NCBI GenBank assembly: GCA_039030075.1 | Contig: JBCCEW010000003.1 | Span: forward strand, 1 to 64,000 | Reading direction: 5' to 3' | DNA: 64,000 nt | Source: Myxococcota bacterium | GTDB lineage: Bacteria > Myxococcota_A > UBA9160 > SMWR01 | Shown here: positions 4,272 to 9,074 of the stretch, piece by piece | How positions within the stretch are numbered: the first letter of the stretch is position 1 | Layout of the letters: each line of letters opens with the position of its first letter | Position numbers and translations under genes: made by a program | The notes under the pieces: model-generated | The model's database searches: none | Seen by the model: only the letters and a program-made list of their open reading frames with translations | Told to the model about the DNA's origin: nothing

Positions 4272-5516
4272 CTAGGGCACGTCGCGGGTCATCGGCTCGA
4301 GCCAAGGATCGGGCTCGGCGTCTTCCCAGTCCTTGCGGCGGGCTTCTTCGGCTTTCTGCCGGGCTTCTTCCGCCTTCTCCTCGGCCTTGCGCCGGGCCTC
4401 GTCCGCTTTCTGCTCGGCTTCGCGGCGCGCCTCTTCGGCCTTCTCCTCGGCCTCGCGCCGCGCTTCACGCACCTTCTCGTCTTCTTCCCGTCGCGCTTCC
4501 AACGCCTTCTCTTCGGCCTCACGCGCACGCTCGGCGCGCTCCAGGGCCTGTTCGGCTCGGGCTTCGCGACGTTCCCGGCGTCGTTCACGGCGATCTTCAC
4601 GACGTTCACGCCGGCGCTCGCGCGCCTTGCCGTCGTCCTCCTCTATCCGCACGCCACCGCTGAAGCTCTCGATGTCGATGCGCGCGTTGCCCTCCCCCAC
4701 CGTGTTCCGCACCCGCTGGCCCCGCGGCGGCTCGAAGGTGCCCGCGAACTCCGAGCGCACCTCGCCGCTGAAGCTCTCGATCGAGAAGCGCGCCGAGGTG
4801 TCCTTCGGCAGCCGCATCTGCACCCGGCCGCTGTAGCTCTTGCTGTGGACCCGCGCGTCCTCGGCGAGCGATGCATCGAGCTCGATGTTCCCAGCCATCG
4901 TCTCGAGGTCGACGCGTTCGAGCTCCTCGCCCTCCACTTCGATGCGACCACTCATGGTCGACACGTCCACCTCTCCCCCCACACCGCGCAGCTCGATGTT
5001 GCCGTTGATGCTGCGCGCCACCACTTCACCGCCATCGCCCTCGTAGTCGATCTCGGCGTTCAGCGTCTCGAGGCGCGCTTCACGCGGAGCGCCGGTCACT
5101 TCGATGCGGCCGCTCGCCGCGTGGAGGTCGAGCACCCCGTCGACGTCTTCGACCTCGATCGGGCCGTGCACCGTCTTCACCGTGAGGTCGCTCTGGTAGG
5201 GCACCTCCAGGCGCAACCGCACGCCTTGCCGCTTCCAGTTCCAGGGACGGAAGCCCCGCACCGGGACGCGGATCGAGAGCTGGTCTTCGTCGCCCTCCAC
5301 TTCGAGGTCGCCCCCGTGCGCGCGCACGCGTACGACGGGGCTGGGCGACCCCTGCACCTCGACGCGACCGTGCAGGATCTCGATGTCGATGTGGGGTTCG
5401 GGCGAGACCGGGTAGAGCTCCTCGAAGCGATCGGCCCGCGCCGGGGCCAACCCCAGCAGCAGGATGCCGATGCCGAGGGCCATGCCTCGCCAGGCGGGGG
5501 TGAGCGTCTGCTTCAT
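4272..5516 (-). CDS. Secreted DUF4097-like beta-repeat protein with charged coiled-coil tail
   Basis: 414 residues. I chose the ATG at 5516 because it overlaps the anti-sigma stop as ATGA and directly precedes a signal peptide (GMALGIGILLLGLAPARA). Residues 25-290 are repeated short beta-strand units rich in IE/VE and G, for example GRIEVTGAPR and GNIELRGVGG, as in DUF4097/putative adhesin proteins that form beta-helix-like folds. From about residue 297 to 398 the protein is almost all E, R, K and A, with an 11-residue period (EEARRKAEEKA), predicting a long coiled coil. It is the third gene of the sigma/anti-sigma operon. Function unknown; a cell-envelope location is inferred. Confidence 0.85.
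   Translation of the reverse strand: MKQTLTPAWRGMALGIGILLLGLAPARADRFEELYPVSPEPHIDIEILHGRVEVQGSPSPVVRVRAHGGDLEVEGDEDQLSIRVPVRGFRPWNWKRQGVRLRLEVPYQSDLTVKTVHGPIEVEDVDGVLDLHAASGRIEVTGAPREARLETLNAEIDYEGDGGEVVARSINGNIELRGVGGEVDVSTMSGRIEVEGEELERVDLETMAGNIELDASLAEDARVHSKSYSGRVQMRLPKDTSARFSIESFSGEVRSEFAGTFEPPRGQRVRNTVGEGNARIDIESFSGGVRIEEDDGKARERRRERREDRRERRRERREARAEQALERAERAREAEEKALEARREEDEKVREARREAEEKAEEARREAEQKADEARRKAEEKAEEARQKAEEARRKDWEDAEPDPWLEPMTRDVP
4336..4468 (-). repeat. Imperfect 33-bp tandem repeats encoding a hendecad coiled coil
   Basis: About four degenerate copies of a 33-base unit within the 3' part of the DUF4097-like gene. Each encodes 11 residues of the type EEARR-x-AEEKA. The repeat is coding and in frame, so copy changes would only lengthen or shorten the coiled coil. 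Confidence 0.7.
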
Positions 5517-6106
5517 GACCGCGCCTCCTCGCGCGTCTGGGTCCACCATTCGAGCCGCTCGAGGAGCTCGGCTTCGTGGCGGTAGGCCTCAGCCAACAAG
5601 AACTGGAGCGTCGGGTTGTCGGGATGCTCCTGGAAAGCCAGATGGAGCTCGGCGATCGCGCGATCGATCTGCGCGAGATTCGCCTCGATCGAGGTCACCA
5701 CCTCGGGCGGCAACCGGTCGCGGCGCTCGGCGAGTAGCGCCTGCAGGTTTGCGTGCACCTCGCCGGTGCCATCGCGTTCTCGCAGCTCGGCAGCGAGCAT
5801 GCGCACCGCTTCCGGATCATCCAGGGAAATCTGGGGCGAAGTGAGCCAGAGCGCCGAACCGACGGTGGTGACGGCGAGCAGCACGACCGCCGCGCTCGCC
5901 GCCCAGACCGGGATTCGGAAGCCGCCACGCCAGGCGGCGTCGGGTTCGGCTTCTCGTGAAGTCGCATCGGCCGTGATCTGATTGCGGATGCCCAACCACA
6001 GGTCGCGCTCGGGCTCGGCCTCGCGCGGCAACTGGGAGAGACGCTCCCGCAGAGCGTCGTCGAGGGGTTCCTCGTTCGGCGTGCGCCAGCGATCCAACCA
6101 ACCCAT
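5513..6106 (-). CDS. Membrane-anchored anti-sigma-factor-like protein
   Basis: 197 residues. The ATG at 6106 shares its A with the TGA of the sigma gene, so the two are tightly coupled. A cytoplasmic N-terminal segment of about 64 residues is followed by one membrane helix (residues 65-88, VWAASAAVVLLAVTTVGSAL) and a periplasmic, helical, acidic C-terminal domain with a heptad-like RERDGT...LERLEWW region. Position and topology fit an anti-sigma factor. However, the HxxxCxxC zinc-binding motif of ZAS-type anti-sigmas is absent, so family assignment rests on context. Heptad-rich periplasmic domains in such proteins often sense envelope stress; that is inference here. Confidence 0.7.
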   Translation of the reverse strand: MGWLDRWRTPNEEPLDDALRERLSQLPREAEPERDLWLGIRNQITADATSREAEPDAAWRGGFRIPVWAASAAVVLLAVTTVGSALWLTSPQISLDDPEAVRMLAAELRERDGTGEVHANLQALLAERRDRLPPEVVTSIEANLAQIDRAIAELHLAFQEHPDNPTLQFLLAEAYRHEAELLERLEWWTQTREEARS

Positions 6107-6681
6107 CAAGACAGCTCCTCTCTCAGCAAGCGGCGCGCGCGATGCAGATGTGCCTTCGACGTCCCGACGGCGAGACCGGTCGTGTCGGCGATTTCCTGAT
6201 GCTTGTACCCGAGCACGTCGTGCAGCCAGAAGACGAGGCGCGCCTGGGTCGACAGCCCCGCGATCGCCCGTTCGAGGTCCAGGTCCGTGCCTTCGAGGGC
6301 GCCGGTTGGCAGCGACACCAGATCCGTCGGCACCTCGTCGGTGTGGCGTTCGCGCCAGCGTCCGCGCGCGCGCATCTCGCTGATCACGACGTTCACGGCC
6401 ACGCGGTGCAACCAGGTGGAGAAGGCGGCGTCGCCGCGAAACGACCCCAAGCGCTCCCAGGCGCGGACGAAGGTCTGTTGGGTCAACTCGTCGGCCTCGT
6501 TGCGGTCCCGCGCCATCCGGAGGCAGAGCCCGTGGATGCGGGGCACGTGGGTGCGGTAGAGGGTTTCGAAGGCCTCCACGTCGCCGGCGGCAGCGCGGCG
6601 CACCACCTCGGCGTCGCTGCCCGAGCGATCCCGCGACGACTCCTCTGCGGGGTCGCGATCTTCGATGGAGGTCTCGCTCAA
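6106..6681 (-). CDS. ECF-type RNA polymerase sigma factor
   Basis: 191 residues, TTG start at 6681 preceded by AGAAGG. Region 2 spans about residues 30-98 with FETLYRTHVPRIHGLCLRMA and the DELTQQTFVRAWERLGSF core-binding and -10 recognition segment. Region 4 is near 135-188 with GYKHQEIADTTGLAVGTSKA as the -35-recognising helix-turn-helix. The pair of regions without region 1 or 3 defines the ECF group. It leads an operon with an anti-sigma-like gene and a DUF4097-like gene. It probably recognises the matched GGTTAAACCC/GCGTCGGAC elements in front of itself and of the divergent gene. Confidence 0.95.
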   Translation of the reverse strand: MSETSIEDRDPAEESSRDRSGSDAEVVRRAAAGDVEAFETLYRTHVPRIHGLCLRMARDRNEADELTQQTFVRAWERLGSFRGDAAFSTWLHRVAVNVVISEMRARGRWRERHTDEVPTDLVSLPTGALEGTDLDLERAIAGLSTQARLVFWLHDVLGYKHQEIADTTGLAVGTSKAHLHRARRLLREELS

Positions 6682-6717
6682 GCGCCTTCTCGGTCACCGG
6701 GGCGTTCCCGGACAGGG

Positions 6718-6750
6718 GTCCGACGCGGCAGGTGGGCCGAGGGTTTAACC
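6718..6750 (-). promoter_or_regulatory. Predicted ECF-sigma promoter of the sigma/anti-sigma operon
   Basis: On the minus strand GGTTAAACCC, 14 bases, then GCGTCGGAC. Read as core motifs this is AACC, 16 bases, CGTC, which is the common layout of ECF promoters (-35 AAC, -10 CGTC). The same two blocks with the same spacing face the other way at 6871-6903. Predicted transcription would start some 30 bases before the TTG of the sigma gene, giving autoregulation. Confidence 0.75.
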
Positions 6751-6870
6751 CCCGACCCGAGAAATCCGCGCTCTGGCTCCGGGAACTCCACGGTCCGGCC
6801 GCCGCCGAGGGGCGACGGTCGGGGCCGCGACAACCCCGGCCCCGGAAATTCTACGCCCGGGTGGTTTCCC

Positions 6871-6903
6871 GGTTAAACCCAGGCGCCGCGGGCGGCGTCG
6901 GAC
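6871..6903 (+). promoter_or_regulatory. Predicted ECF-sigma promoter of the divergent DUF4097-like gene
   Basis: On the plus strand GGTTAAACCC, 14 bases, then GCGTCGGAC, identical in both blocks and in spacing to the minus-strand element at 6718-6750, while the spacers differ in sequence. Selective identity of only the two blocks argues for function rather than duplication. Transcription would begin about 50 bases upstream of the ATG at 6961. Confidence 0.75.
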
Positions 6904-6960
6904 TGTCGATTGCCCGCGCAGGGACTGGACGACCCCTCGCGACGGAGCCCGGAGGATGCC

Positions 6961-7992
6961 ATGACCAGCTCACTCACCCTGCCCATGCTCTCCCACCTGC
7001 GACCGACACTGGCCGGGGCCACGCCGCCGAGGCGGGCGCGGCGCGGGCGCGGAATCCAGAACGGCCTCGGGGTGGGCGGCGCCCTCGCCCTGTTCTTGAT
7101 GGGGAGCGACGCCCAGGCCGAGTGGACCGAGCGCGAATTCGACGTGAGCCAGGGCGGCCGTTTGGTGCTCGACGCCAGCATCGGCTCGGTCCACGTCCAG
7201 ACCCACGACCGCGACCAGGTCGAAGTGCTCGTCGCGCGGCGCGGCCCCTTCCCGCTCCCCGATCTCGAGATGCGCCAGGAAGGTGGCGACGTCTACATCG
7301 AGTCCCGCGACGTCCCCGTCGTCGACTGGCTGCCGGCCTGGGCCGGACGTCGCGTGCGCTTCGAGGTGACGGTTCCGGCGCACTACTCGATCGAGATCGA
7401 GACCGGTCGGGGCTCGATCACCGTCGAGGATGCGGCGGGGCACATCGAAGCGCGCACGGGGCATGGGCGGGTCCAGTTCCAGAACCTGGAGGGGACGCTC
7501 GAGGCACGTAGCCAGGGCGGCGCCATCGAGATCGACGAGTGTCGCGGCAGCGTCGACCTCGTGACCGGGGGCGGGGCGATCGACATCGAAGACGTGGAAG
7601 GCGACATCACGGCCCACACCCAGGGTGGACGCGTACGGGTGCGCGATGCCCAGGGCGACCTCGACCTCCGCACCGGCGGCGGTTCGATTCGCATCGACGG
7701 GGCCCAGGGAAACGTCGTGGCCCACAGCGGCGGCGGCTCGATCCACGTGCATTTCGAAGACGGGCCCGAGGGCAACCTCGAAACGTCGGGGGGCGACATC
7801 GAGGTCTGGTTCCCGGCCGGGGAAGCAGCCTCGCTCGAGGTGGCGGCAGGCGGTGGCCCGATCGAGGTGGAGCACCCGCTGCACCTGAACGGCGCCGCGG
7901 TGCAGGGCGCGCTGGCCGGTGACGTGAACGGCGGCGGTGGAGCCCTCGAACTGCGAACCGGCGGCGGCTCGGTGCGGGTGCGCGAGCTCTAA
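6961..7992 (+). CDS. DUF4097-like secreted or membrane-anchored beta-repeat protein
   Basis: 343 residues from the ATG at 6961, chosen for the GGAGGA ribosome site 9 bases upstream; a longer in-frame start at 6910 lacks one. A basic N-region of about 33 residues precedes a hydrophobic stretch GLGVGGALALFLMGSDAQA, so it is exported. The rest is a run of short beta units (GGRVRVRDAQGDLDLRTGGG, GGSIHVHFEDG) with GGG turns, typical of DUF4097 beta-helix proteins. It is divergent from the ECF operon and shares its promoter type. It is paralogous in fold to the gene at 4272-5516 but lacks the coiled-coil tail. Role unknown. Confidence 0.85.
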   Translation: MTSSLTLPMLSHLRPTLAGATPPRRARRGRGIQNGLGVGGALALFLMGSDAQAEWTEREFDVSQGGRLVLDASIGSVHVQTHDRDQVEVLVARRGPFPLPDLEMRQEGGDVYIESRDVPVVDWLPAWAGRRVRFEVTVPAHYSIEIETGRGSITVEDAAGHIEARTGHGRVQFQNLEGTLEARSQGGAIEIDECRGSVDLVTGGGAIDIEDVEGDITAHTQGGRVRVRDAQGDLDLRTGGGSIRIDGAQGNVVAHSGGGSIHVHFEDGPEGNLETSGGDIEVWFPAGEAASLEVAAGGGPIEVEHPLHLNGAAVQGALAGDVNGGGGALELRTGGGSVRVREL

Positions 7993-8300
7993 CGCGACAC
8001 GGATGGGCCGAGACGCGCACGGCCCGTTCGACCCATTTCGGGTGGAATCGCGCGGTCGGGTGCGCGTTCGCGCCGAGCGAAAGAGCATCCCCTCGGGTCG
8101 AGACGGAAACGGGTTTCCGCGATCGTGGAAGAAGCGAAGCGTCTTCCCCCGGCTGGCCTGCCATGTGCCGTTTCCAGCACGCAGGCGCCTTCGAAAGCCC
8201 CTGATTTCACTTCGCTTTTCGGGTCCGGTTTCGGTTGCATCTGGCATGCGACTTGCTTGTTAATAGGGAGCCCTCACTTCTGGGAAGGAGTGTTGTCCCT
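7993..8300. other. Intergenic region with sigma-54 promoter
   Basis: 308 bases without a gene between the DUF4097-like gene and a PEP-CTERM gene. The first 240 bases show no convincing ORF, terminator or repeat. The last 60 hold a sigma-54 promoter (8242-8257) and a GGAAGGAG ribosome site (8283-8290). Upstream activator sites for an enhancer-binding protein would be expected at roughly 8100-8180, but I could not recognise a palindrome there. Confidence 0.6.
8242..8257 (+). promoter_or_regulatory. Sigma-54 (-24/-12) promoter
   Basis: TGGCATGCGACTTGCT matches the consensus TGGCAC-N5-TTGCW with one difference; the invariant GG (8243-8244) and GC (8255-8256) have the required spacing. It sits about 45 bases upstream of the PEP-CTERM gene start at 8301. 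PEP-CTERM genes in other bacteria are known to be controlled by a PrsK/PrsR two-component system acting with sigma-54, which makes this match more credible. Confidence 0.8.
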
Positions 8301-9074
8301 ATGTCTCTCGTTGTCCGATCCCTCCGGACGCATTGGCTGCTCCCGATCGCGCTGGTCTTCTGGGTTCTCCCGAGCCTCGCGTCCGCAGCCGGAATCACGG
8401 GCCTGTCCATCCAGGCCGGCATCGTCGACAACCCGGCGGCGCAGATGACCATCACCGACGCGATGATCCAGGGCCGGATCGACGCGGAGGAGCTGGCCCT
8501 GACGAACAACCCGGACGGCACCATCACGCTGTCCGGCAACACGACGTTCGCGATGGGTGCCTGGTCGCTCGACATCTCCGAGATCACCTTCGACCCCGAC
8601 CCGATCGTGTCGATCGTCGGCGGGCTCACGAACCTCTCGGGCGTCAACCAGGACTTCTTCGTTCAGACGAGCATCCCGATCGTACCGGTCGCACCGAGTT
8701 CGCTGATCGGCGGGTCGACCGTGCTCTCCTACGTCGACGCGAACCTCAACGGCGGCGGCATGACGAACGTCACCGGCGGCGCCTCGGGCTTCGCGGGTCT
8801 GATCGACGGGATCGAAGTGTTGACCCTGCTCGACACCTTCAACCTCGTCCCGATCACCGACAGCGCGTCCGAGACCCTCGGTCTGCCCGGGCCGACGATC
8901 CCCGGCCCGGCCGGCAACGTCTCGATCGGCGTGCTCAACCGGTTCAACCTGAGTCCCGGAGACCAGGCCACCTACAACAGCATCTTCCAGGTCGAGATCG
9001 TTCCCGAGCCCGGCACGGCAGCGCTGCTGGGCCTGGGCCTGGTCGCGATGAGTTGGGTGCGCCGCAAGGCCTAG
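8301..9074 (+). CDS. PEP-CTERM sorting-domain protein
   Basis: 257 residues; ATG at 8301 with GGAAGGAG 10 bases upstream. The N-terminal signal peptide (LPIALVFWVLPSLASA) is followed by a Thr/Ser/Asn/Gly-rich, all-beta secreted domain with no known family. The C terminus has the full sorting signal VPEPGTAALLGLGLVAMSW followed by VRRKA: PEP motif, hydrophobic helix and basic tail. Such proteins are processed by an exosortase and usually released or anchored with exopolysaccharide. No exosortase gene is in the window. A sigma-54 promoter lies directly upstream and a strong hairpin terminator downstream, so it is a single-gene unit. Confidence 0.93.
   Translation: MSLVVRSLRTHWLLPIALVFWVLPSLASAAGITGLSIQAGIVDNPAAQMTITDAMIQGRIDAEELALTNNPDGTITLSGNTTFAMGAWSLDISEITFDPDPIVSIVGGLTNLSGVNQDFFVQTSIPIVPVAPSSLIGGSTVLSYVDANLNGGGMTNVTGGASGFAGLIDGIEVLTLLDTFNLVPITDSASETLGLPGPTIPGPAGNVSIGVLNRFNLSPGDQATYNSIFQVEIVPEPGTAALLGLGLVAMSWVRRKA

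Follow-up and report, generated by a model that had tools for sequence, protein, structure and literature searches.

Mirrored ECF-type promoter motifs between a sigma factor operon and a divergent Toastrack gene in a Myxococcota bacterium

The question raised by this locus is why the same two sequence blocks, at the same spacing, occur twice in a single intergenic region and face outward, one copy toward a sigma factor operon and the other toward a divergent gene for an exported protein. The motif GGTTAAACCC-N14-GCGTCGGAC, with the core AACC-N16-CGTC, is present in two exact copies at positions 6718–6750 (minus strand) and 6871–6903 (plus strand) of the window, i.e. the whole stretch of 64,000 nucleotides that was analyzed; both lie within the intergenic region 6682–6960 (279 bp), and their upstream edges are 120 bp apart. 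The preferred reading, to which we assign a probability of roughly 0.88, is that the adjacent ECF sigma factor recognizes these sites as the −35 and −10 elements of two divergent promoters, the first (predicted promoter P1) serving the sigma operon and the second (predicted promoter P2) the divergent Toastrack gene.

The sigma factor (191 aa; 6106–6681, minus strand) has a TTG start codon preceded by GAGAAGG and contains Sigma70_r2 (residues 41–108) and Sigma70_r4_2 (residues 135–186) domains by Pfam; it scores 86 bits against TIGR02937 (sigma70-ECF), for which the cut-off is 42.9. It thus has sigma2 and sigma4 domains only, separated by a short linker, as is characteristic of ECF (group IV) factors. 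Two further characteristics of the group can be recognized in the sequence, namely a putative promoter of the −35 AAC/−10 CGT type, whose AACC-N16-CGTC layout is conserved among orthologs, and a putative co-encoded anti-sigma factor, the product of an overlapping downstream gene that is orthologous to zf-HC2 anti-sigmas. This anti-sigma-like membrane protein (197 aa; 5513–6106, minus strand), the start of which overlaps the sigma stop codon, has one predicted membrane helix at about residues 68–87. Although it does not itself match any Pfam family strongly, the zf-HC2 zinc finger is present in its same-slot orthologs at three loci (L033–L035). It should be noted that the H-x3-C-x2-C motif of class I zf-HC2 (ZAS) proteins is absent both from the window protein and from its counterpart at locus L144; these two have lost the finger and kept an LPxxxxPxRDLW helix, the membrane helix and a helical outer part. 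The N-terminal part of the structure model of the window protein is mostly poor and does not reveal a sigma-binding fold. From its position and orthologs we infer an anti-sigma function for this middle protein. The third gene encodes an exported Toastrack (DUF4097) protein of 414 aa (4272–5516, minus strand) with a charged, coiled-coil-like C-terminal tail; its start overlaps the anti-sigma stop, it has same-slot orthologs, and the three genes are joined into a leftward operon by overlapping start and stop codons.

The AACC-N16-CGTC core had been called a known ECF layout, and it does equal that of the experimentally mapped Tt-RpoE1 promoter, tGTTAC-N16-CGTC, in which CGTC occupies positions −13 to −10 (PMC3397946). 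With Tt-RpoE1 numbering, transcription would start near 6712 on the minus strand, giving a leader of about 31 nt, and near 6909 on the plus strand, giving one of about 52 nt. The position and conservation of P1 agree with putative positive autoregulation of the sigma factor.

The two copies share blocks, spacing and outward orientation but not their spacers, as the preliminary description had stated: only 6 of 13 compared spacer positions are alike, which is the level of unrelated GC-rich DNA. The dissimilarity of the spacers indicates that the 33-mer as a whole was not recently duplicated, and such a duplication was therefore rejected as the origin of the second copy. The symmetry of GGTTNAACC, the near-palindromic character of GGTTAAACC on its own and the outward mirror layout could instead suggest that the blocks are operator half-sites for a repressor or activator, forming a long inverted repeat with no promoters. 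However, the orthologous −35 elements TTCCAACC, TCTAAACC and TTCAAACC are non-palindromic, so that the palindromy of GGTTAAACC appears incidental; in addition, the −10 block and the N16 spacing are conserved and the distance to the start codon is promoter-like. The operator interpretation was rejected on the basis of the non-palindromic −35 elements and is considered highly improbable.

Further evidence for divergent promoters comes from orthologous loci. Orthologs of the sigma factor are sparse (43–60% identity): a search of 80 genomes revealed one in only a single other member of the order (G319), and they occur in seven further genomes among 379 drawn from across the phylum, in ten genomes of one other class and on Acidobacteriota and Gemmatimonadota contigs. 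The order sigma/anti-sigma/Toastrack recurs at most of these loci. AACC-N16-C[AG]TC is found upstream of the sigma gene at 14 of 17 loci in the phylum, as compared with 0.38 expected from the remainder of the loci, and lies 11–64 nt before the start codon, taken as the position aligned with the start of the window's sigma. Other sigma-side spacings (8–15 and 17–25) give 0–2 matches each among the 17 loci. The forward motif is absent before the sigma gene at three loci (L146, L149 and L196), in two of which the gene abuts an upstream reading frame, and in the Acidobacteriota orthologs (L034 and L035) the site has a spacing of N17. A mirrored AACC-N16-C[AG]TC is present at 6 of the 17 loci, again versus 0.38 expected (binomial P about 1e-6), always with N16, and other spacings on the opposite strand give 0–1 matches; these counts overstate independence, since some orthologs are related (e.g. 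L190 and L192). The six are the window, L144 (G319), L148 (G363), L191 (G468), L194 (G470) and L195 (G453).

Within each of these six loci the two sites have the same type of −10 element, CGTC in the window and L144, the variant of the window's order, and CATC, a variant seen in another family, in the other four. When the forward and reverse sites were re-paired among loci, only 17 of 720 permutations gave pairs as alike as the true ones, a result that is confounded by descent. The suggestion that the mirrored copy arose by chance or was left over from a duplication, the sigma-side promoter alone being functional, draws on its absence from 11 of the 17 loci and on L144, where no Toastrack lies behind it. 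It fails to account for the excess of mirrored sites at a uniform N16, for a spacer that was not copied or for a −10 variant that matches its partner in every genome, and we regard it as very improbable. With respect to −10 recognition, column 110 of the sigma alignment is Arg in 5 of 6 sigmas associated with CGTC and in none of those associated with CATC, a weak lead that is likewise confounded by descent.

The same data bear on which sigma factor reads the sites. A first look at the genome gave about 37 sigma-like candidates, and AAC/CGT layouts are common to many ECF groups (PMC8103513), so the sites might be real ECF promoters served chiefly by another of the genome's sigma factors, or by a set of them whose specificities overlap. 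This is unlikely, although less so than the other two alternatives, because the site adjoins this particular sigma at 14 of 17 orthologous loci with a constant spacing and the extended motif is absent from the rest of the genome. Together, the ECF domains, the footprint upstream of the sigma gene and its mirrored copies support, at the level of sequence, the original proposal that the sigma drives both its own operon and the divergent gene.

Scanning for the motif was the test that had been suggested for this proposal, with many random matches as the outcome that would count against it. Allowing up to three mismatches, GGTTAAACCC-N14-GCGTCGGAC has two matches in the window (shuffle mean 0.01) and is confined to the same two sites across the complete set of draft contigs (5,758,225 b in 55 contigs, genome about 95% complete). 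These are also the only genomic matches to TTAAACC-N15..17-CGTC (reversed control, 0). The shorter GTTAAACC-N16-CGTCGG is matched exactly twice and never with a single mismatch; at two mismatches there are 13 sites, compared with 7 for the reversed control. All but one of these 13 sites overlap reading frames, the exception having CTTC instead of CGTC. A larger regulon was rejected because the sites at two mismatches come close to the control in number and are almost all located inside reading frames. Contig C34 carries a third TAAACC-N17-CGTC site, which no gene follows closely. These scans support a compact regulon in which the two sites would be the only targets in the genome at the searched stringency, weaker sites being possible; the output would then consist almost purely of two Toastracks and the regulator. 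In three relatives with complete-looking single contigs of about 12–13 Mb, there is one exact extended-motif match each, at the sigma gene, and imperfect matches are no more numerous than in the control, so that a narrow regulon looks like a trait of the family. In G319, four other CTAAACC..CGTC sites occur, some of which precede genes of unrelated predicted kinds; no Toastrack was seen among them.

The divergent gene (6961–7992, plus strand; GGAGG before the ATG) encodes an exported Toastrack of 343 aa. It had been described as a DUF4097-like surface gene: the DUF4097 assignment holds, the window's two Toastracks matching PF13349 with 53.5 and 38.2 bits (gathering cut-off 22.9), and the N terminus is signal-peptide-like, but the surface location is presumptive. 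A tree built from 45 Toastrack domains places the divergent protein in a clade of tandem pairs from its own order (support 100/100), in the part designated pair-B (94/99), its exact position inside pair-B being moderately supported. The tandem pairs of the relatives are located away from this sigma and have no motif in front of them. Such tandem DUF4097 pairs recur in the window's order (L131–L143) with no ECF sigma adjoining.

At the other mirrored loci the divergent slot has varied contents, most often a Toastrack gene. It holds a DUF4097 gene in L148 and L195 and a DUF2807 gene, which belongs to the same Toastrack superfamily as DUF4097 (PMC11237479), in L191; in L194 the divergent reading frame is cut by the contig end and, although similar in sequence, has no Pfam match. 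At L193 a divergent DUF4097 gene lies behind a variant AACG-N16-CATC site, and in L144 all that lies behind the mirrored promoter is a reading frame of 69 aa, which has a good ribosome-binding site; no Toastrack is present there. In family f34, to which loci L148, L193 and L195 belong, the divergent Toastracks form a separate clade close to the operon Toastracks in the tree. At these three loci the N termini resemble lipoprotein signals, and the ATG codons are only about 10–15 nt past the −10 element, which suggests that the transcripts may be nearly leaderless. A search of G319 for a homolog of the window's divergent protein (P0004) found none; this result and the tree rule out a divergent gene that is orthologous at all loci. 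The location of divergent Toastracks on unrelated branches suggests repeated recruitment, and these sequences point to at least two independent fillings of the slot, or three if DUF2807 is counted.

Two other features lie to the right of the divergent gene. A sigma-54-like −24/−12 element, TGGCATGCGACTTGCTT (8242–8258, plus strand), is directly upstream of a gene for a PEP-CTERM-type exported protein (ATG near 8301, end at 9074) and is the one match in the window to TGGCAY-N5-TTGCW (0.03 expected). Between 9914 and 17908 on the minus strand, genes resemble a Tad/Flp-type pilus or secretion locus, their translations being those of CpaF-like ATPase, CpaE-like, TadE-like, CpaB-like, Flp pilin and secretin proteins.

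The arrangement most likely represents an anti-sigma-gated, self-amplifying circuit with two predicted Toastrack outputs. A presumed envelope signal would relieve inhibition by the membrane anti-sigma; the freed sigma would transcribe its own operon leftward (sigma, anti-sigma and Toastrack), providing both positive feedback and fresh inhibitor, and would transcribe the second exported Toastrack gene rightward. The Toastracks may sense or buffer the envelope signal. Because the arrangement is kept by relatives across the phylum, it is probably a real and very compact circuit of a broadly known type. A more extended proposal is that the circuit is self-contained, its whole regulon being one mirrored pair, and that Toastracks of separate ancestry (own-order pair-B, DUF4097 of the Polyangia type and DUF2807) have come to occupy the divergent slot on three or more occasions. 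This would imply selection for having another Toastrack under a matched promoter, perhaps as a signal sensor or buffer relative to the operon-encoded one. This proposal is tentative, and we consider it somewhat more likely to be wrong in some part than right. If correct, the circuit would be among the smallest complete sigma factor circuits, with one intergenic region as the entire regulon; repeated recruitment of Toastracks to one slot would connect ECF signalling with a domain that is widespread and little understood, and the sigma, anti-sigma and two promoters would form a testable module with natural CGTC and CATC −10 variants for studies of promoter specificity.

A literature search with partial coverage found no published description of a sigma/anti-sigma/Toastrack operon with mirrored promoters. 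Related systems are known. Toastrack domains (DUF4097/DUF2807/DUF2154) are known from envelope stress modules, including LiaG/PSP partners, and a context with an operonically linked sigma has been mentioned; the classical lia and related Toastrack modules differ in having LiaRS or PadR-type regulators (PMC11237479). The same study argues that Toastrack is intracellular, whereas the proteins described here have signal-peptide-like or lipobox-like N termini. The Tt-RpoE1/Tt-TolB system of Thermoanaerobacter tengcongensis is similar in promoter spacing, −10 element and downstream membrane anti-sigma, and Tt-RpoE1 is autoregulated in vitro, but the anti-sigma has a TolB-like domain, the −35 element is different and the portion of the report drawn on here describes no divergent target (PMC3397946). 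In the RpoE7-EcfR7 system of Sinorhizobium meliloti (ECF16), the sigma appears to activate its own anti-sigma operon, the regulon is small and the strongest targets of RpoE7 are genes divergent from it; however, its four targets are conserved hypothetical genes, and Toastrack is not mentioned (PMC6180224). An autoregulated ECF sigma with divergent targets is therefore already known from RpoE7, and the mirrored Toastrack version is a new twist on it.
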